A DNA stretch of 64,000 nt. Source: Blastobasis lacticolella. Its lineage: Eukaryota; Arthropoda; Insecta; Lepidoptera; Blastobasidae. The notes beneath the pieces were generated by a model. That model was not told where the DNA came from. It ran no database searches and was given only the letters and a program-made list of their open reading frames with translations. Within the stretch, counting starts at the first letter, position 1, and every line of letters starts with the position of its first letter. This document shows positions 1,204 to 42,900 of this stretch, in pieces. The stretch spans positions 18,784,001 to 18,848,000 of the forward strand of contig LR990050.1 in assembly GCA_905147135.1 (NCBI GenBank), read 5' to 3'. The position numbers and the translations under genes were made by a program.

Positions 1204-1266
1204 ATTGCGTTTGATCTGACCCACAAGTATCCGCCGGTAGAGCCACTACCTTACGCTGAAGGAAGG
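1204..1266 (+). CDS. pgant-like exon: linker before the lectin domain
   Basis: A 63-bp exon of 21 codons, phase 0 at both ends, lies between a good acceptor (TTTGTTATGTTTCAG) and the donor GTGCGTG. It encodes IAFDLTHKYPPVEPLPYAEGR. A short YPP(V/I)-P-P linker of this kind joins the catalytic and ricin-B domains in GALNT proteins. The next exon continues directly with IRPIWDNSFC. The exon is short, so its boundaries rest on the splice sites and the join to the next exon. Confidence 0.75.
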
Positions 1267-4200
1267 GTGCGTGATATTTTTTTTTGTTTATTTTGCTACC
1301 TATATAATCTAATCCATGAAACACCTCATGAAAGGTAATTTTCAAAGGTTAGTGTGATGACGTAAAGGGCCACAAGTCCGCTAGTTTAGGAATACCTTAA
1401 TGTACCCGGGAAAATAATAAAAAAGTTCATTTTCACTCTATACCATTATAGAAGTCGTTATTCCAAAACCAATAGCTTTTGTTTCACTTCGATACGATAA
1501 GTATGTATTTACAAAATTATTGTCAACACTGGCACTCGGCTTATACCACATGACGTCATCGTATCCGACGGCCTTTTTACGTTGCGCGAGTCACGCCTCC
1601 CGTCCGAATAGAACGAGGCTAGTGTGAGAATGGAATCCGATGACGTCACGGACGCGGCTTCGAAAACAATAGTGCGTGCTCATTTTTCGAATCTTTAAAA
1701 ATTCATTTATGAAGCAATATGTAATGCTAGAAAAAAAAATACATATTTTAAGTTGTAACATGTATTGAAAAAAAGCAACTAAATTAATATAATTTCCACC
1801 CTCATCAGAATCAGAATAGGAAGTTTGACGTGTTTCTAGTATTCTGCTCCTAATTAAGGACCAATGGTTTTTCATTGCAATTACTTTGAACTGCTTTTGG
1901 ACAACTTTCTATTCTGATTGGAGCTCGATTATGCACTAAAACGGCCGTCTCTTCAACATTAATAAGTAACTGAGAGTAGTGTAGAGAGTAGAGAATAGAG
2001 TAGAGTAGTACAATCAGAACTTATTACCACGCCGTTGATAATGATTTTTTGTACAATACCCATTTCGTCTCAATCGAAAAATTGTAATGGAGTCTCAATT
2101 GACCACCTGAGTAGTTCAGTTTGTTAACATGTCGGTCTGCCACGCAAAGGTCCCGGGTTCGATTCCCGGCCGGGCAGGAATAAAGCGATAGGCATCTTGG
2201 CTAAACCTGCTGTTTTTCATGTCATCCGGTAGGCAAATAGGCAAGCGGGCCCCCTGATGAAAAGTGGTCACCGCTGCCTTTAGACATGAGCTACACCAGG
2301 GCTATCACCAATGCCCACCTCTAATACCCTGGGACACGTTGCTTTGGTTGCAAAAAGGCAAATGCCCTTCCACTGCCAAAAGCCACGGTTCCCCTCCACC
2401 CTATGGTTCACTGGAAACCTTACTGTCTGGAACGCAATACTATTTAAAATAGTATTGTTTGGGCTTTGGCTAGTATTCTTAAAATAGTTTTTTCTATCAA
2501 TTGACATAATAGGTTTATACCATGTTCCTCAGATCCGTCCGATATGGGACAACAGTTTCTGCGTGGACGCGGCCAACGGCGGACAGATGGATAAGGTCAA
2601 GCTATCGTACTGCACCGGCTCCGAGGAACAATACTTCATACTGTCCTACCATAAGGATATCAGGTGAGAATGCACTATCCTACTACAAGGATATCAGGTG
2701 AGAATGCACCGTCCTACCTTAAGGATATCAGGTGAGAATGCACTATCCTACTACAAGGATATCAGGTGGGAATGCATTCGCCTACCTTAAGGATATTAGG
2801 TGAGAATTCACTGTCCTACTACAAGGATATCAGATGAGAATGCGCTGGCCTACCTTAAGGATATCACATGAGAATGCGCTGGCCTACATTAAGCATATCA
2901 GGTGAGAATGCACTATCCTACCACAAGGATATCAGGTGAGAATGCACTGGCCTACCTTAAGGATATCAGGTGAGAATGCACTGTCCTACCACAAGGATAT
3001 CAGGTGAGAATGCACTGGCCTACCTTAAGGATATCAGGTGAGAATGCACTGGCCTACCTTAAGGATATCAGGTGAGAATGCACTGGCCTACCTTAAGGAT
3101 ATCAGGTGAGAATGCACTGGCCTACCTTAAGGATATCAGGTGAGAATTCACTGTCCTACTACAAGGATATCAGATGAGAATGCGCTGGCCTACCTTAAGG
3201 ATATCACATGAGAATGCGCTGGCCTACATTAAGCATATCAGGTGAGAATGCACTATCCTACCACAAGGTTATCAGGTGAGAATGCACTGGCCTACCTTAA
3301 GGATATCAGGTGAGAATGCACTGGCCTACCTTAAGGATATCAGGTGAGAATGCACTGGCCTACCTTAAGGATATCAGGTGAGAATGCACTATCCTACCAC
3401 AAGGATATCAGGTGAGAATGCACTGGCCTACCTTAAGGATATCAGGTGAGAATGCACTATCCTACCACAAGGATATCAGGTGAGAATGCACTGGCCTACC
3501 TTAAGGATATCAGGTGAGAATGCACTGTCCTACCACAAGGATATCAGGTGAGAATGCACTATCCTACCACAAGGATATCAGGTGAGAATGCACTGGCCTA
3601 CCTTAAGGATATCAGGTGAGAATGCACTGTCCTACCACAAGGATATCAGGTGAGAATGCACTGGCCTACCTTAAGGATATCAGGTGAGAATGCACTGGCC
3701 TACTACAAGGATATCAGGTGAGAATGCACTGTCCTACCACAAGGATATCAGGTGAGAATGCACTGGCCTACCTTAAGGATATCAGGTGAGAATGCACTGG
3801 CCTACCTTAAGGATATCAGGTGAGAATGCACTGGCCTACCTTAAGGATATCAGGTGAGAATTCACTGTCCTACTACAAGGATATCAGATGAGAATGCGCT
3901 GGCCTACCTTAAGGATATCACATGAGAATGCGCTGGCCTACATTAAGCATATCAGGTGAGAATGCACTATCCTACCACAAGGTTATCAGGTGAGAATGCA
4001 CTGGCCTACCTTAAGGATATCAGGTGAGAATGCACTGGCCTACCTTAAGGATATCAGGTGAGAATGCACTGGCCTACCTTAAGGATATCAGGTGAGAATG
4101 CACTATCCTACCACAAGGATATCAGGTGAGAATGCACTGGCCTACCTTAAGGATATCAGGTGAGAATGCACTATCCTACCACAAGGATATCAGGTGAGAA

Positions 4201-7200
4201 TGCACTGGCCTACCTTAAGGATATCAGGTGAGAATGCACTGTCCTACCACAAGGATATCAGGTGAGAATGCACTATCCTACCACAAGGATATCAGGTGAG
4301 AATGCACTGGCCTACCTTAAGGATATCAGGTGAGAATGCACTGTCCTACCACAAGGATATCAGGTGAGAATGCACTGGCCTACCTTAAGGATATCAGGTG
4401 AGAATGCACTGGCCTACTACAAGGATATCAGGTGAGAATGCACTGTCCTACCACAAGGATATCAGGTGAGAATGCACTGGCCTACCTTAAGGATATCAGG
4501 TGAGAATGCACTGGCCTACCTTAAGGATATCAGGTGAGAATGCACTGGCCTACCTTAAGGATATCAGGTGAGAATGCACTGGCCTACCTTAAGGATATCA
4601 GGTGAGAATGCACTATCCTACCACAAGGATATCAGGTGAGAATGCACTGGCCTACCTTAAGGATATCAGGTGAGAATGCACTGTCCTACCACAAGGATAT
4701 CAGGTGAGAATGCACTGGCCTACCTTAAGGATATCAGGTGAGAATGCACTATCCTACCACAAGGATATCAGGTGAGAATGCACTGTCCTACCACAAGGAT
4801 ATCAGGTGAGAATGCACTATCCTACCACAAGGATATCAGGTGAGAATGCACTGTCCTACCACAAGGATATCAGGTGAGAATGCACTATCCTACCACAAGG
4901 ATATCAGGTGCGAATGCACTGTCCTACCACAAGGATATCAGGTGAGAATGCACTATCCTACCACAAGGATATCAGGTGAGAATTCACTGTCCTACCACAA
5001 GGATATCAGGTGAGAATGCACTATCCTACCACAAGGATATCAGGTGAGAATTCACTGTCCTACCACAAGGATATCAGGTGCGAATGCACTGTCCTGCTGG
5101 ATATCGTAGGTTTACCATATTACCGATTATTACCGGTATTTTTGCGGAATGTTGGGGACGTTGGCTCCTCGCAGCTCAGGGTTCCGCGGAGCACACTGAG
5201 AATGCCTGCTATAGGGAATATTTTTAATATGCCACTTATTATAACCTTTAAAATTGTTCGTTTAGTTATGTTAAACAATATTCTTAGGTCCATAAAATAA
5301 CGTTGTAACTTGCAGTGTCCTAGTAGGGTTCTTTTACTTAAACTTCTTAAACTTTACTGCCCTATCGGCCATCTGTTCTTTGAGCTATGTGCCCTGCCCA
5401 CTGCCACTTCAGTCTGGCAATCCTTAGGTCTATGTCGGTGACCTTGGTTCGCTTGCGGATCTTCTCATCTCTGATTCGATCGTGCAACGAGACTCCGAGC
5501 ATAACCCTTTTCATTGCCCTTTCGCAATATAAAATCTAATGTTTTAAACTATCGCGGTTATTATTGCATCATGCATCATGGTCACGGGACGCAAGTGCAA
5601 CTGTGTCGAAATATCGGGCTACTCGTCAACAAAGGTACGCGGTAGGAAACCCGGAACATACCCTTAAAATGTGTAATATAATTTTTTTATTTTTTAAACG
5701 TTGAGTCTCAAAAAGTCCAAGTTGCAAAATGTCGAGTGGTAGAAAAGTGTTCAAGTCGCAAAAAGTTCAAGTTGTAAAATGTCCAAGTTGCAAAAAGTCC
5801 AGGTTGCAAAATGACCAAGTTGTAAAATATCACTTGCTTGACTCATTGCTATGTTACGGGCACAAAGCTCTTTGTGCCCGTAACATAGCAATGAGGTTTT
5901 TTACGTAATTTTAGTAGTACTTATAAGTTTTTTTTTTTAAATGTGAAAATAGTAAATAAAATAAAAAAAAAAACTTAAAATCTTACGGTGACATAATTAC
6001 GTGGGGAACTGAACGATTCGCCTATTGATACATGTATCGATGCACAGGCTGAAGTCTCGTCTGATCTGCTGGGACCTGCCCGAGTCCGCGGACGGCAGCC
6101 CCGTGCTTCTCTTCTCGTGCCACCTCGGCGGCGGCAACCAGGCTTGGGCATACAAGAACGTAAGTTCACTGACTACCACATACTAACAGGCTAGCAGGTG
6201 ATGGGTGCGGAGTGCGTGGGAGAAACTAGAGGGAATGGATGGATGAATTACGAAATGGAATGTGAATGAGCCCGAGAAAGAGATATTAAAGCGGTGAAAA
6301 GTTTTTGCAGGGTCGCCAACACGTGAGTGATATCCCTGGTATTGCAAACGTCCATAAGCCAAAAAAATACAGTTCAAATAAATGGCCGACAAAACGCAGA
6401 TCTGTAGGCTAATAACATAACCCTGTTGCCAACAATTCTTTGATTTCAATAATTGAAATTGTCACTTGCGATTACGTATGATAGATTTAATAGCTTCAGT
6501 TCAAACAATCGATGATACAGAATCGCTATTTTAGCTTTAAGTCTGCCAATGTACTGTTTGTGCATGAAGTAAAAATAAATAAATAAAATCGCAAAAGTAA
6601 CAATTTCAATCATTGAAATCAAAGAATTGTTGGCAACAGCGTTTAACATTAGCCTATTGGATGCTTTTCCATAGAAAATAAAATAATCTAATATTGAACT
6701 TATAGTTCATTCGCGATAAGAAAATAGTGAGTCATCGTTGTCCGCCGAACTAGCGCCGCCCCTCGACCAATCGGGTCGCAACGAATTAGAAAGCTAAGTT
6801 CACAGTGACCAGTTGACGGCAGAAAATAATGAAAATAAATACCGCGCCGCTTGGAATTAACAGCAAATACTAGACTGACTGACTGGCCGTGTGGTGTCCG
6901 GCAGAGTAGAATAGCACCAACCCCTTACACTCGTGGGTGACATACAAGGCAACTAATGTTTTCGAAGCAAAAGATCAGGAGACTCCGTAGTCTGGAAAAT
7001 GGGCAGCAGCATTTTCCATTGTTATATTTAAACACTGCGATCTCCAACCCGCCTGCCAAGCGTGGAGATTATGGCAATAACCTCCCCTTTCGTGGGAGAG
7101 GCCCCAAGTCCTGTAGTGGACTGTTACGGGCTGCGATAATGACTAGACTGACTGTTAAGCAAAGGGATATCCATGGCATATCATTGACTTTATTTTGAGT

Positions 7201-8696
7201 TTGAGACAATTAAGTTGATTTTTATCGTTTATTATGCTGACGAATACCGCCATTTTAAACCCCGAGGCAAAAATGTATGATGAAAAATATGGGTATCTGT
7301 AAATCTGTGTCTGTTTGTGGCATCGTAGCTTCCGAACGGATGGACAGACTTTGATGCGGTTGTCTTTATTCGAAGACCAGTTGAGTGGAGATAGTTATTG
7401 GCTTGTTGCTTTTTTAAATCAATACAGTAGTTTGTGGGAAATATTATAGTATAGGTGTATGTATAGAGGTTCCGGGTTCGAATCCCATTGCGGCCATGTA
7501 CCAATGACTCTTTTCTGAGTTATGTACATTAGTAGAATGCTAACCGATGCTCTTACAGTAAGGAACAATATCGTGATGAAAATGCATATTTAGGTGACTG
7601 GATGTGTAACAATGATCCAGTCAGTTCAGGTTCCCCTGGTAGCAGGGTCATTGAGGGCAGTCGCTCCACTGTATTTACCTGATCGCCAAATCCTGGATCA
7701 TGTTCCGGGTCCGCCATGACCATTATTTGGCGATCAGATAATTACAATGAAGCGACTAACATCTGACCTCCGTGACCCTGCAACCAGGGGATCCTGACCA
7801 GATTGGATCATGGTTACAAATTCAGTTGCCTAAATTTGCAGGTTTCATCACGATGTTTTCCCTCACCGTAAGGGCATCGGTTAGAATTCAACTAACGTAC
7901 ATAACTCAGAAAAGAGTCATTGCTACATGGCCGCAGCGGGATTCGAACCCGGTACCTCTCGCTAACGAGTCGGATACTCAACCACCCGGCCACCGACACT
8001 CACTCTTGTGGTACACTCAGCATAACTGCCGCAAAGATCAGAAAGTGTGTCGTATGTGACAAATGCTTGTTTGCGCGTTACTTTAAAAACAAATAATAAG
8101 ACTACGATAAGTCCGAATCGCTTATTAAAAAAAATTAAAAAAATCTCTGTATGACAACTTATAACAAGTTTTTTTAAAGTAATAGAACGTCATTCATAAA
8201 AGTCATAACAAATTATATTTCTGTGGGATTGATTATTTTCGTGAGTTATGACAAATATTATTAAATAATGGGCAAAACAATTAAAAAGGAAGTGAGGGTG
8301 ATGATTCTAAGCATGATTAATAATTTAGTCAAACTAAAAGTACAAGTTCAACCCAAATAACTGAATGTTTACAAGACTGACAAGGACAGATTGTCCTCAG
8401 ATTATCGCCATATCCACATTTTACATTTCTAACTACTGTCAGTCAATACGGACTTATCGTGGTCCTATTACAGCAATCGATAATTGCAGGACACCGTACA
8501 GCTGATCCACCCAGCCAGCGGGAAATGCGTGGCCGCCATACCGGGCACTCTCGACATATTTGTGGTCGCATGCGACCCGGACTCCTTTGCCCAACGCTGG
8601 AATATAGAGGAAATAAACGACGAAATGATGGAGTTGTTTGATAAGCAAGTGGACAGGGTCACCGGGACTTTGGAGCCCTGGCCGGCAGAAGGTTAG
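1204..8696 (+). CDS. Polypeptide GalNAc-transferase, 3' part (lectin domain), exons 1204-1266, 2533-2663, 6048-6159, 8490-8696
   Basis: This is the 3' end of a pgant/GALNT-family gene. The enzymes are Golgi type II membrane proteins that start mucin-type O-glycosylation by moving GalNAc from UDP-GalNAc to Ser/Thr; the C-terminal ricin-B lectin domain biases acceptor choice. Four exons splice in frame (63, 131, 112 and 207 bp) and give about 170 residues: a linker (KYPPVEPLPYAEGR), an alpha repeat (SFCVDAANG), a beta repeat (LICWDLPES ... GGNQAW) and a gamma repeat (GKCVAAIPG ... FAQRW), ending in TAG. The Cys pairs and QxW-like motifs of ricin-B repeats are visible. The catalytic domain must lie left of the window. 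I cannot tell which pgant paralogue this is. Two further terminal exons downstream can replace the last one. Confidence 0.88.
1267..2532 (+). other. Intron of the pgant-like gene
   Basis: AT-rich intron with no supported exon. It contains several TGACGTCA/TGACGTAA strings (1348-1650) and a SINE head fragment at 2104-2180; otherwise I see nothing clear. Confidence 0.6.
2104..2180 (+). mobile_element. SINE head fragment (tRNA-like)
   Basis: GTCGGTCTGCCACGCAAAGG followed by the B-box GGTTCGATTCCCGGCCGGGC. It resembles the head of the 685-920 SINE, with little body after it. Confidence 0.5.
2533..2663 (+). CDS. pgant-like exon: lectin alpha repeat
   Basis: A 131-bp exon that enters in phase 0 and leaves after two bases of an Arg codon (AG|GTGAGAATG). 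It encodes IRPIWDNSFCVDAANGG, then QMDKVKLSYC, then TGSEEQYFILSYHKDI(R), which is the alpha repeat of a ricin-B domain with the first Cys pair (SFC ... SYC) and a degenerate QxW (EQYF). Its last 23 bases plus the first 11 intron bases are the seed of the 72-copy 34-bp minisatellite that follows without a gap. Splicing at any later repeat donor would read through the first donor and meet TGA at once (ATC AGG TGA). Confidence 0.9.
2641..5088 (+). repeat. Minisatellite, 72 x 34 bp, built from the exon/intron junction
   Basis: The unit begins at the exon bases CTGTCCTACCA and runs through AAGGATATCAGGTGAGAATG to CA. (5089-2641)/34 is exactly 72, so there is no net indel. The first unit is the authentic end of the lectin-alpha exon. 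Three main variants alternate: CTGTCCTACCACAAGG, CTATCCTACCACAAGG and CTGGCCTACCTTAAGG. Most units keep the 5' splice-site string AGGTGAGAAT; a few have AGATGAG, ACATGAG, AGGTGCG or AGGTGGG. A variant block starting at 2801, 3141 and 3855 shows larger-scale duplication (714 bp = 21 units between the last two). Confidence 0.97.
5340..5530 (-). mobile_element. RTE-type LINE fragment (reverse-transcriptase ORF C-terminus)
   Basis: On the minus strand this reads RAMKRVMLGVSLHDRIRDEK, then IRKRTKVTDIDLRIARLKWQ, then WAGHIAQRTDGR. It matches the C-terminal part of the longer RTE copy at 12.75-14.55 kb. It is a short, 5'-truncated fragment inside the pgant-like intron. Confidence 0.7.
5605..5672 (+). 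repeat. Half copy of the 959-1063 foldback
   Basis: It contains the loop TCGAAATATCGGGCTACTCG and the right arm TCAACAAAGGTACGCGGTAG through ACATACCCTTAAAATGTG, without the left arm. Confidence 0.75.
5706..5832 (+). repeat. Degenerate tandem repeat, about 16-17 bp unit
   Basis: About seven imperfect copies of a unit like AAAAAGTCCAAGTTGC, alternating with AAAATGTCCAAGTTGT. It ends just before the perfect palindrome at 5842. Confidence 0.8.
5842..5895. repeat. Perfect 26-bp inverted repeat with 2-nt loop
   Basis: The arm from CTCATTGCTATGTTACGGGC to ACAAAG is followed by CT and then its exact reverse complement ending at CAATGAG. It is intronic, about 150 bp before the acceptor at 6048. A perfect arm suggests it is young or actively maintained. 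Confidence 0.93.
6048..6159 (+). CDS. pgant-like exon: lectin beta repeat
   Basis: A 112-bp exon; its first base completes the Arg codon, then 37 codons follow, ending in phase 0 at the donor GTAAGTTC. It encodes LKSRLICWDLPESADG, then SPVLLFSCHLGGGNQAWAYKN, the beta repeat with its Cys pair and a clean QxW (NQAW). Coding GC is far higher than in the AT-rich flanks. Phase-0 exit matches all three candidate terminal exons downstream. Confidence 0.92.
6882..7141 (+). mobile_element. Short retroposon (LINE-tail type) with 13-bp target duplication
   Basis: It starts near GGCCGTGTGGTGTCCGGCAG and ends near CAAGTCCTGTAGTGGACTG and TTACGGGCTGCGATA. It is flanked by ACTAGACTGACTG at 6869-6881 and 7142-7154. 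A second copy lies at 11039-11307; shorter relatives are at about 34040-34200 and 55050-55125. It has no coding capacity. Confidence 0.82.
7228..7400 (-). mobile_element. Fragment of a dispersed repeat
   Basis: CTGTTTGTGGCATCGTAGCT followed by TCCGAACGGATGGACAGAC is the reverse of the family seen at 63170-63420 (TCTATCCGTTCGGGAGCTAC, GATGCCACAGACAGATAC) and, in part, at 10165-10275. It is non-coding. Confidence 0.55.
7455..8010. mobile_element. Two tRNA-derived SINEs in head-out inverted orientation
   Basis: The left copy (+) has the tRNA-like B-box GGTTCGAATCCCATTGCGGC at about 7472 and the phrase ATGACTCTTTTCTGAGTTAT. The right copy (-) ends with its head at about 7930-8010 (reverse complement of GGTTCGAATCCCGCTGCGGC). 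The bodies meet near 7700 in TGATCGCCAAATCCTGGATC and its inverse, giving a palindrome of about 550 bp. Confidence 0.75.
8099..8466. mobile_element. MITE ending about 24 bp before the acceptor of terminal exon 4A
   Basis: The ends are imperfect inverted repeats: AAGACTACGATAAGTCCGAA, against the reverse complement of the right end, AGGACCACGATAAGTCCGTA. A related element with the same termini lies at 14938-15485. It has no ORF. Confidence 0.78.
8490..8696 (+). CDS. pgant-like terminal exon 4A: lectin gamma repeat and stop
   Basis: A 207-bp exon of 68 codons plus TAG. The acceptor is CGATAATTGCAG. It encodes DTVQLIHPASGKCVAAI, then PGTLDIFVVACDPDSFAQRW, then NIEEINDEMMELF ... VTGTLEPWPAEG. 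The Cys pair (GKC ... VAC) and QxW (AQRW) mark the third ricin-B repeat. The exon is the same length as 4B and shares its phase and the RW-I--IN and VTG motifs. A MITE ends only about 24 bp before the acceptor, so the branch point must be within or next to it. Confidence 0.9.
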   Translation, partial: DTVQLIHPASGKCVAAIPGTLDIFVVACDPDSFAQRWNIEEINDEMMELFDKQVDRVTGTLEPWPAEG

Positions 8697-8768: not shown

Positions 8769-9083
8769 GCCACCTGACGTCTCATGTAATTTGGTGGTGT
8801 TATATATACTGTTTTACCCACAGATTTATGTTCTACAGATATAAATCTGTGACTAGAACAGTTTACGTCTGGTTTACCCATAAATTTATGTTCTACAGAT
8901 ATAAATCTGTGACTAGAACAGTTTACGTCTGGTTTACCCATGGATTTATGTTCTACAGATATAAATCTGTGACTAAAACAGTTTACGTCTGGTTTACCCA
9001 TGGATTTGTGTTCTACAGATAAAAATCCACGGGAAAAAGAGTTTCCTCTGTTAACACCGACTAATTACACGACGGCAGGTGGC
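8769..9083. mobile_element. MITE carrying a 60-bp tandem repeat, downstream of exon 4A stop
   Basis: The terminal inverted repeats are about 34 bp: GCCACCTGACGTCTCATGTA on the left and, reversed from the right, GCCACCTGCCGTCGTGTAAT. Three exact-length 60-bp units run from 8821 to 9000 (unit around TTCTACAGATATAAATCTGT and TTTACGTCTGGTTTACCCA) and a partial one to about 9028. It begins 73 bp after the stop of exon 4A, so it would be in its 3' UTR. A relative is at 27723-28055. Confidence 0.85.
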
Positions 9084-17149: not shown

Positions 17150-17356
17150 ACAACGAAACAGATAGTCCACTCCAGCAGCGCTTGCCTCGCTTTCGCGCCA
17201 GACACACACTCGTTGTTCGTGAGCAAGTGCAACCCGGACGCCCTCGGCCAACGCTGGACAATAGACGCTATTAACGTGGAGAGGATGGCCAAATGGGACA
17301 AAGACAAATTGGAGTCACACCAGGTCACTGGCCCCGAGGAGACATGGAGGGATTGA
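17150..17356 (+). CDS. pgant-like alternative terminal exon 4B
   Basis: A 207-bp, phase-0 exon after the acceptor ACCGTTTCCAG, ending in TGA. It encodes TTKQIVHSSSACLAFAPDTH, then SLFVSKCNPDALGQRW, then TIDAINVERMAKWDKD ... HQVTGPEETWRD. It aligns along its whole length with exon 4A (same Cys pair, QxW, I--IN and VTG) but differs at most surface positions. Length and phase are conserved and it has no stop or frameshift, so I infer a functional alternative 3'-terminal exon spliced from 6159. An AATAAA at 17858-17863 could serve its 3' end. Drosophila pgant9 has splice variants within the lectin domain that change specificity, which is a precedent and not proof here. Confidence 0.78.
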   Translation, partial: TTKQIVHSSSACLAFAPDTHSLFVSKCNPDALGQRWTIDAINVERMAKWDKDKLESHQVTGPEETWRD

Positions 17357-22072: not shown

Positions 22073-25000
22073 TTCCCCGACATTCATATATGAATAGATA
22101 GATGAATGTGGAAGAAGCGAGAATGGTTTGTGAGGATCTTGGCAAGGCTTGACGTTATGTTTGTATGTACGTACCGTTTCCAGACAACGAAACAGATAGT
22201 CCACTCCACCGGCGCTTGCCTCGCTTTCGCGCCAGACACACACACGTTCTTCGTGATACAGTGCGACGCGGACACCATCGTCCAACGCTGGACAATAGAC
22301 GTTATTAACGTGGAGAGATTGGCCAGGTGGGATGACGAAAAGTTGGAGGACTCACACCAGGTCACTGGCCCCGAGGAGCCATGGAGGGATTGAGAGCAGG
22401 TTTGGACCACAGGTACAGACGCCTGCAGAGAAATGCGTTTCAAGAAAGTGTGTTTAAATGGAAAAAAATTAAGCATTTGAGCATTACAACAATAGTTATT
22501 ACCGTGAGGAGGCGTTCTGTATAGTTTCCCTATTTGCGATATGTTCGCGCCCCATTCAGTGTTATCCGAATTTTTCATAAATTTATGCCAGTAGTCGACC
22601 GAGAGATCAAAGCACGCTTATGCTTATCCATTTGGCACGAACTATAGTGTGAAATCTGTCCAGATTAACATGTCCTTATTGTTTACAACACTCGTAACGA
22701 AAAACTATTACATTTTGACATTTGGAAATAAATTGCTGATGTCCATAGGCGGCGGTGACCACTTTCCATCAGGTGGCCCGCTTGCCTGTTTGTCTGCCGT
22801 ATAACATAAAAAAAATTGTCCAACCCTATAAATTTTCTTTGAATTAATGAATTAATAAATTAACTTATTTCAGACAAAAATGTATGAAATGAATTACAAA
22901 ACATTATCCCTATTTCGTTAGGAAATCTTAACACTAAGTAGTACGCCATAATTGTTTACCACGTAATAACAATCTGGATATGTTTTTTATATGTGCTAGG
23001 CTAGAGGTATTTCTCTTTAGGCGACCGTACATTCGGTTTTAAAGACTGAGTATCAACTCTGAGAGTTAACTCGTACAACAAACTGTAGGGATTTCGGTAG
23101 TAAGTAAAGCCCATTGGCTAGTACGGTTTCATGAAGCGTCGTCGTCGTACGCGTGCGAGTAAATAGGAAGCCGAAACAAGCCGATGCGCATAGGTCACGC
23201 GTGGGTGAAGCCCCTGGTATTGCAAACGTCCATAGGCTGCGGTGACTGCTTACCATCAGGCAGGCCGTAAGGTTGTTTACCACATTAGTGGATAAAAAGA
23301 AATTGCCGACTAGTGTAACCACATTGTATAAATATTAGTAGAGATAATCGACCTCCCAAAAACTAGAATCGACCACCCAAAAACTAGTATGGGATGAGCT
23401 AGCGTCTGTATAGATTCGCATAGCAATGTTAGCTCCTTTTATACTGGTACACATATCAATTTGCTTTATATTCCTCATACAGTTAATAATGTTACGGAGA
23501 AAAGACTAACGTAATCGCTATTTCTGAACCGATTCGATTGGGAGATGGGATTGGTAACTTTCCTCAAGAAACATTGCGACACTGGGTGTCCATGGTCGGC
23601 GGTTATCACTTATCATTAGGTGATCCGCTTGCTAGTTTGATTTCCTCTGGTACAAAAAAAGTTAAATCTTTTTTTGTACCTTATAACCATACACCCATGA
23701 CCACCAGGCCATCGAGGACATTATTAGATAAACTTTACTGTGGGCGCGTCTATTACATTAGGTAAGTTTGCGTCTCAACCTTCCAAGTTTAATAGTATAC
23801 TTACTTACTTACTTACTTACATATACTTTTCGAAGGGTATACAAAATTGGACTTCGCAAATTGCGCTAGATTTCAACTATACTTTTGAACCGTTGAAATT
23901 CGGTTCGAACACAAATTCGTTAAAACATAAAATGCCTCAAAAAATATTTTATTCTGAACCGTTTCAAGTTTATGCATCCGAAGCGGAGCTAGCTCATTTT
24001 ATACTGGTCTAAATAGCGTACCTACGTTTCGTGAAAAAAGTCAATAAAAAAAACGTACCTGAAAATTCGGGTATAATTTGCCTTTACATTTTTGATAGTT
24101 CTTCCACGTCCGCAAATATAACGTCTTACGTCATCAAGCATTGAGTGTGGAGAATTTGCATGAAGCATTTTGATGCCCAATCACAATTTTTGTACTGTTT
24201 GTATATGTGGACGTGGGCAGACATATTAGAAGTGTCAAAATGCTATTAACACTAATACTGTTGAAGTATGTCTACCTTACTTCAATAGTTTTAGTGCCAG
24301 TCAAGTAAATAGCTACTAAAATATATTTAATAAATAATGTACCGTTTTTAGCTGTCATTTTAGTGACGAATTTTTAATTTGTAATGTTTGCTTTGTAGTA
24401 TAGTTCGTAGGATGACACAATCCATGGAAATAATTCTTAACGTAATGGAATAAGGTGTTAAGTTATTTTTAGCTTTCATTGTTCCTACACCGTAAATCGT
24501 TACGTTAATAATTATTAAGCTACAATGCAAATAGCATTTACGACGCCATTTGATTCTACTTTATAAGGCTAGATTAATTTGTGTATTTTATTTTATTCGT
24601 GAGGGTTACTGCTGATACTACATATATACTTACTACATATAGACATTTAAACAATAATGTCAAAAGATTTCAGCAGTAATTTCAGGATAGGATGATTGTC
24701 AACCCTTGACTTTACTGGCGAAGACAACTGTTTTCAAAATTTTTTGTGTTACAAGCAAGAGATTATTTTAAGCGGCATCCACATAATGCGCATTTTAGAA
24801 AATGTACAGTCGAGAAATCTAAATGTTTAGCTGTTTAGCCGTCTTCTTTATTTGTTCGTATTACTAGAAGTAACATCTCATAATGACGAACGACACGTCG
24901 GAAATAGTAACACGGCCAATTTCAAAAATATGATCACATTGCTAAACACTCAGTTTCCTCGACATTTTGCTATGCATATTATTTTAGTCGAATGTTTTGT

Positions 25001-33975: not shown

Positions 33976-36900
33976 CTGGAAAGATGCGACAATAGGAGGT
34001 AAGTATGTGGGTGGATAAGACTTGTCGTGTCGTTTCGGGGGAGATAGTAACACTAAGGTGGCTAATGTGTTCGAGGGAGACCAGTTAGGATGTCAGCAGA
34101 CCTGAAAATGGGCAGCAGTGTTTGCCGTCGATCTCCTACCCGCCTGGAGATTATGGCAAAACCCTCCACTACTGTGGAGGAGGAGGTTCAATGAGTCATA
34201 TTCTTTCTAGGGTATTACATAGTATCGGTCCAGGGCCAAGATGGATGGCGCTCTTTAGTGGAGGCAGTTCTTCAGTGGATGGAAAGGAGCAGCTCGAAGA
34301 ATCTACAAATCCGTAAAGGTTTGTTCAGATCTTAAAATTTCCTTTATTTTTTCTTTATTTTGTGTTTATAATATCAGAGAATAGGATCATCATCATCGTC
34401 CCAACATGCATAGGAACTCCACGAGCCTCCTCGAGCTTTCTTTATAGTCACAACCTTTTGTATTCAGCATCGCCTCCCACGCTCAACGGCTATCTCTTCG
34501 CTTACTACCACGGTTCGGTCCGCCTCGGCCACCGTTCAACACCATCAAATCAGCTGAGAGATGCCCACTGGAGCGCATAGGCATCCAACCCGCGACGTTT
34601 CACCTGGAGCGCAGTCGGAAGCCTCACCTGGAGATGGAGTGCACGTCCTTGGCGGCCCAGCCGTCGACGACGCCGTGCGAGATGAGCTCCTCCTTCTCCT
34701 CCTCGGTCCAGGCGCCGCGGCCCTCCCAGCCGGCGGCCACGAGCGCCTTCTCGCGCTCCCAGGCGCGCGCGGCGGCGCGCTTGTGCGCGTGCTTGAGCAG
34801 CTTGGCGCGCTCGGCCGCCGCGTCCGCGCCGTAGCGCAGCACCACCAGCGCGCCCGCCGCCGACGGGCCCACCGCGTGCACGCGCACCTGCGCACCAGAC
34901 CAATCGATCGATTAATTTTTAGTTTTAAGTCTGGCCATGACAGAATACCAGCGGGTGTGGGTCCTACCTTCACCCCACACGCTGAGTCATGGACCATTTT
35001 ATCTGTTAGAAGCTTTTATTTAAAAAATACATTAATACTAATCTGTTACTTTATAGACAAATAAATATTTCTATTTCAATCAAAATTTACACAAAGTACT
35101 AGGGTACTTAACTGCTAGATTAGAGGTGATCAATGTATAATCCGCGTCATGAAAAAAGAAACTTGTCAAATGGCAGTAGAGGGGATTTCGCGCAGGTAAT
35201 CGCCTACTGCGCAAGTCAAACCACGTGACTCGCTAAGTCTCTTCTCACATGACACTAGTTATATTACATAATATTTTAAACTATCGCGGTTATTATCACA
35301 CATTTTAAGGCGAAACTCTCGAAGGCGAGGGTTTCACTTTTGCGAAAACGGGCAGATCGGCTTCGGCCGCTTAGCTATCACCGCCCTAGGTGACATATTT
35401 ATTCTATTATTATTATTTATTGCAACACACAGGTTATGCAATTACAGGTCTTAGAGAAATCGGTATTAGCGCGCTGTGATTTACCTACAATATAAAATTT
35501 CAGTAGGTATTTATAAAAGTAAATACACAGAGGGATTTTGTGTTACAAGTTTTCAATCGAGTATCTTCCGGAGTGAAGAAGAGAACAAGGTACGACCCTG
35601 GTCTAGAGGCAGTGCGTTTGCGAGAGAGAACATGCATAGTATTTGCGTAGTGCTCTTCGTTGGCCAAAAAGCTGTCGGCTCGATGTGCTTACAAAGTACG
35701 GTGATGTGACTTTCAGAAAAAAAGAAAGAAAATATCTTAATTGGACGACACGATGTTACAAACACTTTCAATTAGTGTATCTTGAATGTACAATGAATAA
35801 AATAAATTGAATTTGAATTTGGGCTCAGTAACGCTCGCGTGAGTCCGAAAGTTGGTTCACCGTTTTGTACTTTGAGGCTAGTCGAACTTCAGTACCTTAA
35901 CCAGCCCGTATCCAGATGCAAGACCGGTTTGATTAAATAGTTTTGAGAGCCGATTGGCGCCCCGTTGCCTACCACCTAGTCCTAACTCTGGCAAGCCCTG
36001 AGGACCTTACCAGGATTAGCCCTACCACCTTTTCTTCAAAATGTCTTCTTACTTTGATTTTGCTTCGTATCGGACTTGATCTAGCATATATTAGCTAAGA
36101 ATTCGATGAAAGAATAAACAATGTTTACCTCCAATCCTTGATCGTTGGTCTCATCCTGGGACACGTTGAACTTCCCAGACAGTCTTCTCAGCTCCTCCAT
36201 ATCGTCTCTGATCTTCAACGAATTGTCCTTCACAAAGTAGAACACATCCTGATCGTGAATGCTGAAGTGGACGTCGAGGAAGTGAGAGTTGTTGAAGACT
36301 GTCGTGATCACGTCTTCGACCACGCTGTTGGCTCCATCGGCGACGCTTATGAACGCTTTCCCGTCCACTCTGGAGATCAATACTCCTTCTCCGAACACGC
36401 CCCGTTTGTATGACACCCTCGGAAGAAGATTACGCGTGATCGGTTCCATTTTCAAGAGTGGCGTCGGGACGAAGTCAATGTCTGCGAGCTTGTCGTTGAC
36501 CTGAGAGATAGAAAAGTATAGTTAGTACAAAAGTCTGATTTAAACTTAAGTCATAAAGGCATATGTGTCTGTGTTAGAATCTTTTCAAGAGATTTGTTAG
36601 AGACAATTTAGATAATTATTGGTAAATAAAGTCACCTTCTCAATGATGCATTGCAGTCCAGACATCACGCCGAAGTCAGGGGCCAACTGAGGAGCAGTGA
36701 CTGAAGTCATCGGCTGGAAGATCATGTCCGTGATATATTTGGATCCCATCATTTTGTTCAAATCGTAGCCATACAGCTGCAACCAGCTACCAAGGTTAGT
36801 CATGTACGGAACATTCTGATTCTTATTAATCGGATCGTTGTTCTTGAATCGGTAGATAAATATGTCAGTTGGAAGACTTAGTTTCATGGAAAGGTGCTCC

Positions 36901-39900
36901 CAGCTTGGCGTCATCCACTGACCAACGACTGGGTCGTACAATCGGTTCTCCAGATAGATGAGGTTGGTGTTGTAGTCGAAGATGCCTCCATGGAAGTCCA
37001 CAGGGACATAGAAGCTTGGATTGCTATCTTTGATGATCTTTCCGAAAGGACTGCGTTTGATTTCTTTGATGATCTCTCCGTTGACATCGAACACCACTAA
37101 AGGTGAGCCGTTGTGGTCTGTCGCTACGTAGAAACGCTGATCTTCTGTCTCTATCCCAGTCAAGAAGTCTCTTTGATCGTAGAGGAACCTAACAGTCTTT
37201 TCTGTCTTGGGGGAATGCATATGAGTTATCAGGTTTGGTGTTTGAGGGTTCGTGTAGAAGAACTGGGTAATGTTATTCTTATCGTCCTTCCAGGCCACTA
37301 ATCTGTTCCTGTCATCGTAGAAGTACCAAGTTTGGAATTTGTCTCGTTCAAAGGCGTGCACGAACTGTCCTCTGGAGTTGTATCTGTATTTCTGTTCTGC
37401 GCGTCTTATGACGAAGCCGCGGCCATCGTAGCTGCTGAATTCAATGTCACCGTATTGAACAACACGGTCACCAATATCGTAGCCCAGGTATCTCTTCTCG
37501 CCATGCTCAATGACACCGATGACGTTGCCGTTCTCATCGTAAACGTATTTCCAGTCGTCCTCAGAGCCAACAACTTCCATCAAGTGTCCATCGTAGTTGT
37601 AGCTGATTCGTTCGTTGGATGATGTGTCGCCTATCATCATCTTTTTCGATTTAATTCGGTTTCTTACGTCGTATTCCAGTTCCAGGCGGAACACGTCGAA
37701 GGACTTGATGTTCATGAGCACGGTCTTTATCCTGCCGTGATCGTCGTAGTCGGTGATTGCAAAGTATTGCTTGCTGGTGTCCTGCATCACTGACCGGTTG
37801 AAAGTGTTTCTATAAATCCTCAGATCGCTGACTCCTTCAAGTGAACCCAGGTTTTGGTTGTATTTCAGTCTCAATTGTGGCAATTCCTTGCTGTTAATAT
37901 TCACGTCAATCGTGGACAGTCTAGCGTTGCCATCGTATTGGTACTTGAAGTGAGCGTTGTGGAGTCCACTCTTGGAATTGAATTTCATCTTTTCGTCCTT
38001 CAATATGCCGGCGTGGTACTTGTAATCTTGTTTTAGTTCGTAATCTGGATCAGAAATCTCAACATTCTTGACCAAATGAGTATTGTCGTGATACACGTAG
38101 CGAATGGCCGAAGCTCCTGCCAGGATGGTTTCCAGTTTACCAGTGCTGTCATATACGTACAAAATCTTTCCAGATTGGTGGGGGAAGATCTTAGCTAGAA
38201 TGTGGCCATCATCGTTGTAAAGAATTTCGTAAGGATGCCTGTTCATTGGCGAGAAATATTGGTATTTGAAGTAACCAAGAGACGTCATGAGAGCGAACGT
38301 GTGTATATGGCCTCGAGGTGTAGTGAGGTTTTGTAAGGCACCAGAATCGTCGTAATCGAGGAGATAATCACTTCCTCTGGGGGTCGTTACCTTCAGAGGT
38401 AAGCTTGTGAACATATCTCTGAAGGAATAGGCCAACGACGAACCATCACCGTAGCGTATTTCGTGTAATCTTCCAGCTCTGTCAAATCCATACGTCTCAT
38501 TTAGATCACCCCAGCTCCACCTGGTCAATCTGTTGAATCTGTCATACTCTAGCTCTACTTCTGCAAAGATTTCGTTCCTGGGTCCCCATTTGACAGGTCG
38601 TGCGGTTCTGTCATAAGTCACATTCAGCAACTCAACTTTGTCGTCCATGAAGACAGCTACAGTCGAAGAATCGCGGTCATATTCAAGAGTCAGAAGATTC
38701 TCACCGTTCACTCGTAATTTGCGACCGATTTGTGCTACAGCTTTGCTTCCCTTGCCTTTGTTAGATTGCAGTCTACGCAAGAAGTAGCGCCATTCGAAAC
38801 GATTGGCCAAATCTCCGCCAACTTCAGTTCTCTGCTTTGCCGGTACTGGGTAGCTTTCGCCTAGAATCGGGTCAATTTCTGACAGGATCGTGTATGGGAC
38901 AGTGTCGGTAGAAATCACGTGGCCCCAAGGCATTGTTGAGGAGATACTTCCATCGGTAGAGATTATCGTTTTCTTCTCTGCCTCCCCAACTTTGGTCTTG
39001 ACTGATGATCCTTTGATGAGTATGGATACAGGCTTCCTATTGTTTTCACTAACGAGCACGGTAGCGCCTTTGACACTGAGGTCGAAAGTCAAATTGATTA
39101 TTCTACCAGTAGGCGTTACAGCTGACGTTAGCCTTCCGAACTCATCGTACTTGTAAATGTAACTCCTACCGGTGCTGTCGTATTTCGCCTTCAATAACCC
39201 CGTTGTGCCATGATAGTCGAAAGTCATGTTGAAGTTGTCAGGTGTCCTCAACTCCTGCAACATCTTCATTCTCGACATCTTCAACCTACATTTCTGACCT
39301 TTTGTATTTTCAATCGAATTGACCATACTGGAGTAATCTCTCAATAAGAACACCTTGTTTCCAGCTGCATCAGTTACAGTGCTAAGTTTTCCGTTACTCG
39401 TGTTCACTGTATAAGTAAACACGTAGTTGTTTTCTCCTGTCAATATGTTTTTGGTCATGACATGTTGGCCGAATCTGTTGAAGATGTATGTCTCTTGTGT
39501 ATCGGGTGAGTATATTTCATACTCTCTTGCGCCGCTCGCATCAGGAATGCTGGCCATTACTGATCGAATTCTGTAATTGGCTTGGTCTGCAATATGCACT
39601 ATGCCGTCAGGACTTACGATGACAGCCGATATGGTGTTGAACTTGGAATTGGACGCCAAAAAGTGATCAGCTTCGAAGCAATCGCATCCCCGTTCAAGGC
39701 AGTTGCATTTTGACTCCGCACCGGCGTACAAAGATATCTTTCCATCGGTTGTGATGAGACGGACTCTGTTGATTCTCTGCGAGTCGCTCTCAGCCACGTA
39801 CAAATCACCGGCGGCACCAAAGGCGATGCTTTGCGGCATTACTAGGGTAGCATAAGTTGCGAGTTCCATATCGTACCCGGTTAAAGGTGATGGGCAGTGG

Positions 39901-42900
39901 AGGGGTCGTCCGGCGATCACTTTAACTCTGCCGTCTGGTGCCATTTGCAGGATCATGTGGTCATCGATTATATGCAGACTGTTATCCAAAGGATTGATAG
40001 CGAGTTCCGTGGGCCATCTTAGGTGGACCTCCTCGACACTGAGCGTGCCTTCACACGGGATAGGCTTCCAGTGGGCCCTGTGCATATGGTTTCCGATCAC
40101 AGTGGTGATTATGCCATCTCTGTCTACCATACGGATATTCGTTCCATCGGCGAAGTATAGGACGTTGTCGATGGACACAGCGACGCCTTTGGGGTAGGCC
40201 AGTTTAGCGTCTCTAGCTAGGGCCCCATCTCCGCAATGCGCCTCGTCTCCCGGCAAGCATCTTTCACCGGAGCCGACGACGGTTTCCCAGTTGCGTTCCG
40301 GGTCGCTGTAGTCCTCTGTGTTGCGGACTTTGATGATCTGGTGGGATTCTGGATCAGAGATGTAGAGCGTGCCGTCGAGGGGAGACAGCGCCATGTGGTA
40401 GCGGTAGGAGACTCGGGTGGTGCTGGAAATAATGAGATACTCTGATTAGCAATAATACAGCAAGGTAGTAAACGATAACGCTTTGTTTTCTGAATCCTCG
40501 AAACTTATCAATAACTAGGCTGCGTCGTCTCCAAATAACCCTTTCTAATGGAATCACTACTTAATCAGATCACATCAGATTAACAGCCCTGTTGGACTCC
40601 AGCCCTCTCCACACTTGAGGCGAGTTAGACATCGCAGTGTTAAAAACACACAACAGAAAACGCTCCTGCCCATTTCCTGATCATCGGAGGTCGGAGGTCC
40701 TGCCTCTAAAAAAATTGTCACCTTGCATGAGACTCGTCACTGGAAGGAGTTGGTGCTATATTAAAGACTACCCAATCAAACCAAATTCTCCAAAAATACT
40801 CACTTCAATTTGACCACCGTCCGGACCGTGCCGTCGGTGCTGATCTTCCTGACGAGATTGAAGTCCCCGACGAACAGGGAGCCGTCGGGGGCCGCGGCCA
40901 GGGCTACAGGGGCTAGCAGCCGCGGCCGCGCGCCCCCCGCCCCGCCCGCCCCCGCGCCGCCCGCGCAGTCCCCGCCGCACTCCAGGGCCCGCTGCCGCCC
41001 GTCACCCATAGTGGTGATGATGAGCCGAGGCTTGTGCTTCAAGTAGATGTTCGTGCCGTCGCCCTTTTGGAGAATGCCTGCAGGAGTGGGAGGTTCGGTT
41101 AGTATCGAGGATGAGTCGAGTCGCGAATATAAAATTTGGGTTTATATTTTTAAATATGTAAAAATGTTTTTAAATTGTGAAAAAAAGTCTGGAGAAATAT
41201 TAATTAACGGTGGAGACGACTTGTATCAGACGAATTTGGATCTCACCTTCGTGGAAGTTGTATCTGTGATGAATATCTAGATTCCATCCGCCCACGTCGG
41301 AGATGCTCATGTCGTGGCCGCTCAGCTTCGTTGTCTGAACGTTCCAGATGATATCCTTACAGTCCGTATACTGGTACCCGACTTTCACCAGCGCTGTCGT
41401 CACTCCGTACACTCTTTGGCGGTACACGTTCAATCTGGTCCATGGATACGTGAATTTGATCACAGGGTCCGCTTCAAAGGTCTTTTCGAAGAGAATCCCT
41501 TCAATGGTGATCCTAAGGTGTATGAGAGCCAGGGTCGGTGGGACCTTCTCCGGTGTGAGCTGGAGTTGGATGGTGGACAGATATCCGGCAGCTCGCGAAC
41601 TATGGTACACCAGGTTCAGGCCAGTGCCGGGGATTTGGAGGCTTTCTTGGACGACCTGAAATATGGTTTAGGTATCATGCATTAGTGATCATAATTATTT
41701 TGCTAATTATAGTTAGAAGTACTTTCATTGTCAAGTTATCTCACGATTTACGAAATGTCCTTGAGTTCAAGATTTGTGAGAACAAGTCTTGTGCCTTAAC
41801 TCAACAAAAGGTTAGGGTTAGGTAAAAATGATTAGAATTATGTGGATAATATCACACTGTAAGGCACTGTAAGGCAACATGGCGATATATAAAATCACTA
41901 CAAACAGCTTTCTAACCATTGTTGACAAATAAATTGGAAAATCGTACCTGTGACTCAGCCAATATGGCGCTTTTGTCGGGGCAGGCACCCTGGAAACCGT
42001 GCTTCCACGTGGCCAGCACCACTGGCTTCATCGCGTCGTAGTCGTGAGCGAGACACGCTTGCGGCGGACCCATGTTGGTCTTCTCTTCAGACGTCGTCAT
42101 TACCACCTCGTCGATTATCACCACCTGCAGTTGACGTAATGAATCACATCAGAAAAAGTTTTTGTCGAGGATTCTCATAAGAGGACCGAGTTATCTAACA
42201 GTTCTTAGAAGATTAAATTTTCGTGGACATCTATGTTTCCAAGTATAAACTACTTGCTTTGGAAAAGAATGGGCCTACTAATTGCGGCCAGAGCTACGTG
42301 TCCAGTGGTTTTAGAGGTGGACAACGCATTCCACCAGACCTCCAGGCTTTCTCTGCCTACCATTAAAAACAAACATCTTGGTGTTAATGTCCCGGGTGTG
42401 CTTTAAGCGTACGAGGGCCCGGATAACATAAAACGAACTTATCAGTTGGCAGCTTTAAGCAAAATTATATAACAACTCGACGGTCATAACAACTCATAAT
42501 TATTTCAAACCATTTGGCAAAACGCTCCCGAATTCACAGCGAATGCAAGAAGCATCAAAATAAACTGCAGAAATTAAGTTTTAAAATCTTAATGGGCCTT
42601 TAATCGAGTGTTTGCATGTTTCGCGAGAAATAAATGTAAATTGCTGCCGGCCGTTTGAGTTATTAACGACTGCATCAACTGGCTAATGCCACTTCCTAAT
42701 GTTCATAATACGTTAGGCAAAATTAATGGAAACTTGACCGCTACCGTAAGTGTAAAATTATTATGTTACGAGGGGTTTCTTAATTTGATTGATGTGTAAC
42801 TCAGTTTTAGAGCTTGTCGGTGGAAAAAAGTAGCGTATGCATAATGTACTAACCTCATTCCAAGGCACGAATACCACTTGAGAAGATCTCTTGAACGGTG

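Follow-up and report, generated by a model that had tools for sequence, protein, structure and literature searches.

The window analysed here is a 64,000-nucleotide stretch of the Blastobasis lacticolella genome (contig LR990050.1, positions 18,784,001 to 18,848,000). Its first part contains exons of an apparent GalNAc-transferase gene and, at the end of one of these exons, a long array of 34-bp tandem repeats. The features of this region are as follows, with the basis of each assignment in parentheses.

1204..1266, + strand: exon A, end of the catalytic part/linker, IAFDLTHKYPPVEPLPYAEGR (exon scan, homology)
2533..2663, + strand: exon B, lectin alpha repeat, with its final 23 bases shared by unit 1 (exon joining, Pfam, homologues)
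2641..5088, + strand: unit array, 72 x 34 bp, 23 exonic and 11 intronic bases per unit (TRF and fixed-register cut)
2664..2671, + strand: authentic exon B 5' splice site, GTGAGAAT, in unit 1 (exon joining, homologue spacing)
2664..6047, + strand: intron B-C, 3384 bp, of which the array makes up 2425 bp (coordinates)
3027..3861, + strand: first copy of an exact 835-bp self-match, with the second copy at 3741-4575 (self-comparison)
5089..5115, + strand: degenerate piece of a 73rd unit (unit comparison)
6048..6159, + strand: exon C, lectin beta repeat (exon joining, Pfam, homologues)
8490..8696, + strand: exon D, candidate last exon (one of three) with the lectin gamma repeat and stop codon (homology)

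Readable catalytic exons are followed in this gene by a ricin-type lectin domain. More readable exons with catalytic-domain sequence lie in the 20 kb upstream, which is the region covered. Exons B and C, when joined, read ...LSYHKDIRLKSRLICWDLPES... with the junction HKDIR-LKSRLI-CWD, and the product contains a ricin-type lectin domain (Pfam E = 7.8e-15). Among the best 120 of 5558 matches, the 533-residue protein assembled from the exons has 67-73% identity to lepidopteran proteins in rows P0125-P0167 (73% for Dendrolimus), many of which carry the name N-acetylgalactosaminyltransferase 6; the highest-scoring entry in this set is a Fasciola protein with 56% identity over 88% of the query. Among solved structures, polypeptide N-acetylgalactosaminyltransferase 10 is the best match (E = 2.2e-19). 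Judged by its sequence, the host gene is a readable lepidopteran GalNAc-transferase gene of the pgant6/GALNT10 type, and it looks live.

An earlier note on this DNA had derived the array from a real exon/5' splice-site junction and had named an exon end elsewhere as a finding that would overturn this. The end of exon B at 2663 is borne out by all 43 homologues examined (rows P0125-P0167, comprising 38 named lepidopteran and 5 unnamed proteins), in which HKD[IV][RK] and C[WFY]D are separated by six residues, the spacing predicted by the use of donor 1. This spacing was found by pattern in 33 of the 43 and by eye in the other 10, which have HKDV[RK]. A second lectin-alpha exon was not found by exon scan of positions 1-24000 of the window, which rules out there an alternative alpha exon of the kind present in Drosophila pgant9. 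Three candidate gamma lectin exons are located on the plus strand (8490-8696, 17150-17356, and 22184-22393), and two decayed pieces are located on the opposite strand (9598-9518 and 21338-21129). The closest gamma exon is the copy at 17150 in 30 of the 45 homologues compared, exon D in 10, and the third candidate (22184) in 5, and exon D may therefore not be the main last exon. A 60-bp tandem repeat of 3.7 copies (8809-9027) is present directly behind the stop codon of exon D.

Positions 2641-5088 are filled by 72 head-to-tail units of 34 bp, without indels, when the sequence is cut every 34 bases from 2641. The TRF call (2640-5095, period 34, 72.2 copies, 0% indels, score 3750) agrees with this cut and confirms the copy number and the lack of a net indel reported previously, as well as a unit that crosses from the final 23 bases of exon B into the initial 11 of its intron. 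In register, the 72 units comprise 17 distinct sequences with a mean pairwise identity of 91%. The degenerate 73rd-unit piece that follows at 5089 has CTGTCCT and GGATATC in common with the unit. Within the window, the sequence CAGGTGAGAAT is confined to the array, where it is found 62 times, and GTGAGAAT is found there 63 times and at one other place.

Unit 1 contains the authentic donor, CAG/GTGAGAAT (the slash marks the junction), and the later units copy it, so that 62 of the 72 are identical over this sequence. As a correction to the earlier description of the donors, the other 10 deviate from it. The donor dinucleotide GT is kept in 66 units and is AT in 6; AGGT is likewise found at the junction in 66 of the 72. 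Of eight donors scored in the gene (that of one further exon is not among them), the authentic one pairs most strongly with U1, and the same applies to each of its 61 exact copies; pairing with the U1 piece is equally good at 0.8% of 1707 other GT sites tested. Because these further copies equal the authentic donor in U1 pairing, competition among them is expected. Predicted accessibility gives unit 1 no advantage, ranking it 60 of 72. There is no sign that donors are hidden by RNA structure, as the median donor was at or below the observed accessibility in 28 of 30 arrays of shuffled units. Beyond donor 1 the frame immediately encounters TGA (ATC AGG TGA), and the claim that donor 1 alone keeps the long frame is upheld for a single splice. 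If donor 3 were used in one step, the stop would be 64 nt before the junction, and it would be farther from it with later donors.

The exact 835-bp self-match within the array has an offset of 714 bp, corresponding to 21 units. The chance of 24 consecutive matching units, calculated from unit frequencies treated as independent, is ~3e-18, and the match indicates either recent block duplication and growth or an assembly that is partly wrong (doubled). We consider it improbable that the array is real but has a copy number inflated by assembly, for example through a doubled 21-unit block. The exactness of the match, among units that differ by ~9% on average, is what such an error would leave, but the array lies within a 20.66-Mb contig of a 45-contig, 577-Mb assembly, a contiguity suggesting long reads able to span 2.4 kb, and ~50 units are left even without the block. 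A recent duplication of 21 units is ordinary minisatellite behaviour. All 70 matches of a query composed of the exon and array, obtained from the 577-Mb genome with a search that skips very common words, are at this one locus, ruling out a dispersed satellite.

The earlier note knew of no described case like this array, and in this respect it was mistaken. The human CBS gene has a VNTR in which alternative donors are used. By the title of Lievers 2001, this VNTR reportedly goes with reduced CBS activity. The CBS VNTR, c.1444_1467+7(16_21), has the same architecture as the array in that the last bases of an exon and the first of its intron, with the authentic donor, are repeated in tandem; its 31-bp unit has 24 exonic and 7 intronic bases and is present in 16-21 copies (PMC2630376). 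The array differs in having 72 copies and in its gene and phylum, and polymorphism and effect are known for CBS. Tandem repeats at exon-intron boundaries have also been surveyed in human duplicated genes (PMC2812944). These are similarly minisatellites with units of ~30 bp and can alter splicing, but they have four units on average and are described mainly as forming new introns, whereas the 34-bp array only lengthens an existing one. The 72-unit array is a larger member of an already known kind. Its scale exceeds that of human CBS, and it offers a natural test of the choice that the spliceosome makes when dozens of identical donors are available.

Other systems share some features with the array. 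In human UBC, tandem units also contain AGGT, which is usable there as donor or acceptor, but the repeat belongs to the coding sequence and the intron spans a whole number of units (PMC10809524). Here, the acceptor of exon C is outside the array, the 3384-bp intron that leads to it is not a multiple of 34, and dual use is hypothetical. Intron gain can follow the tandem duplication of an AGGT segment, which supplies both GT and AG, and repeated 24-bp units are reported in fission yeasts; in that process a new intron appears within an exon, whereas here the intron pre-existed (PMC4974935). Minisatellites in Caenorhabditis elegans are also intronic and are associated with alternative splicing (PMC4039745).

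The genome was searched for further arrays of donor motifs with a pattern of three CAGGTRAG sites spaced 10-40 bases apart. The pattern was found at 135 places (73 + 62) as compared with 23 (19 + 4) for the reversed pattern. The 100 places listed form at least six clusters, on contigs C4, C6, C7 (two), C9, and C11, the last being the 34-bp array. A predicted exon's donor starts three of the five other clusters inspected, or four of six with the 34-bp array included, and these are the following.

L031, contig C4: exon whose similarity to EF-hand is weak (Pfam E 0.005, short of the cut-off; weak PDB matches); 35 bp x 19
L033, contig C7: exon resembling Cdc7 kinase, E 7.5e-10; 40 bp x 9, without differences between units
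L035, contig C9: exon resembling axonemal dynein heavy chain, E 2e-4; 77 donors, 17-bp units (TRF 106.5 copies)

In each of the three, the frame meets a stop at most six codons past the first donor. The live donor of L035 is ambiguous because its 17-bp units are interspersed with copies that include a longer part of the exon end. A clear junction was not seen on inspection of L032. L034 has 7.3 copies of a 69-bp unit that contains CAGGTGAG (~2194-2688), and this array may end at an acceptor, as a mirror case; its supposed exon had no family match. As the pattern itself favours donors and has no matched positional control, these clusters are a lead on a class and do not give a rate. Several such arrays in one genome suggest that splice junctions can seed minisatellites repeatedly. 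Literature searches, which were aimed elsewhere (at repeats, splice sites, and intron gain), found no account of such arrays recurring in one insect genome.

Among the options raised in the earlier note, that of a neutral array of variable length appears to fit the sequence best. The array is probably a near-neutral minisatellite within an intron, with donor 1 in use and with some mis-splicing. It would have grown from the exon B/intron junction by slippage or unequal exchange. Selection would still act on unit 1, which is coding and would supply the donor in use, presumably the main one, and units 2-72, being wholly within the 3384-bp intron, would be removed with it and drift almost unconstrained. 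Some transcripts may take later donors and end in ...HKDIR-stop, making them probable targets of nonsense-mediated decay, and the length of the array would be expected to differ between individuals. The units read LAYLKDIR in 28 of 72 copies and LSYHKDIR in 27, with loss of the histidine of the conserved HKD in copies, which shows that the coding sequence is not maintained in the array. Selection on the extra donors was also considered and rejected: in the column test, a weak one, the nine donor columns contain 5 variant alleles and the other 25 contain 13 (P = 0.68 for so few; 0.16 by cells). Conservation is no higher in the donor columns than in the rest of the unit, so that nothing points to such selection. 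This lack of excess conservation counts against a regulatory decoy, in which the extra donors would sequester U1, delay splicing, and promote intron retention or truncated forms of the lectin, as do the young block structure of the array and the result of the exon scan of 1-24000, which gave no second alpha exon. The decoy has in its favour the exact donor copies in 62 of 72 units, with pairing as good as theirs at so few of the other GT sites, and the lectin alpha exon of Drosophila pgant9, a related but different gene, which is alternatively spliced with a functional effect (PMC6115407). We regard it as very improbable, and a hypothetical role as U1 decoy or in intron retention appears to be without positive support here.

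The array might also be self-correcting, its dual-specific AG/GT sites allowing a misused donor n to be repaired by a second splice, which would make growth almost harmless. After misuse of donor n, the retained piece would start with the GT of donor 1 and end with the AG of unit n, and its removal would restore the normal junction. In silico, the retained piece is of the GT...AG form and the normal junction is restored for 68 of the 71 units that follow unit 1; GT is itself intact in 65 of them. The tandem AGGT sites of human UBC, which serve as both donor and acceptor (PMC10809524), provide a precedent, and the putative inner re-splice would have the intron length of the UBC type. In 66 of 71 units, pyrimidines make up 0.53 of the stretch that precedes the unit CAG; the acceptors of exons C and D have less (0.47 and 0.41), but those of exons A and B have more (0.65 and 0.71). 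Also against this reading, a strict YTNAY motif 15-50 bases upstream is missing in 66 of 71 units and present at all six acceptors checked. On balance, we consider repair of this kind unlikely. The broader proposal is similarly doubtful, namely that junction-born minisatellites are recurrent in this insect genome and tolerated because dual-specific AG/GT units let the GT...AG cassettes left by misused donors be re-spliced. If it were true, arrays of this type would correct themselves and could make introns longer with hardly any cost, and the AG/GT in each unit would be a testable reason for their tolerance.

Several other features of the window were observed. By eye, an inverted-repeat element is located at ~960-1070, with a second partial copy at 5600-5670 in the array-bearing intron, and two tRNA-like stretches at 720-760 and 2135-2178 resemble SINE heads. 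A teneurin-m-like gene is present on the minus strand at 36600-40445, with 77% identity to the best named match among the matches listed. Neighbouring minus-strand frames with EGF-like repeats, also identified by eye, are probably part of the same gene.
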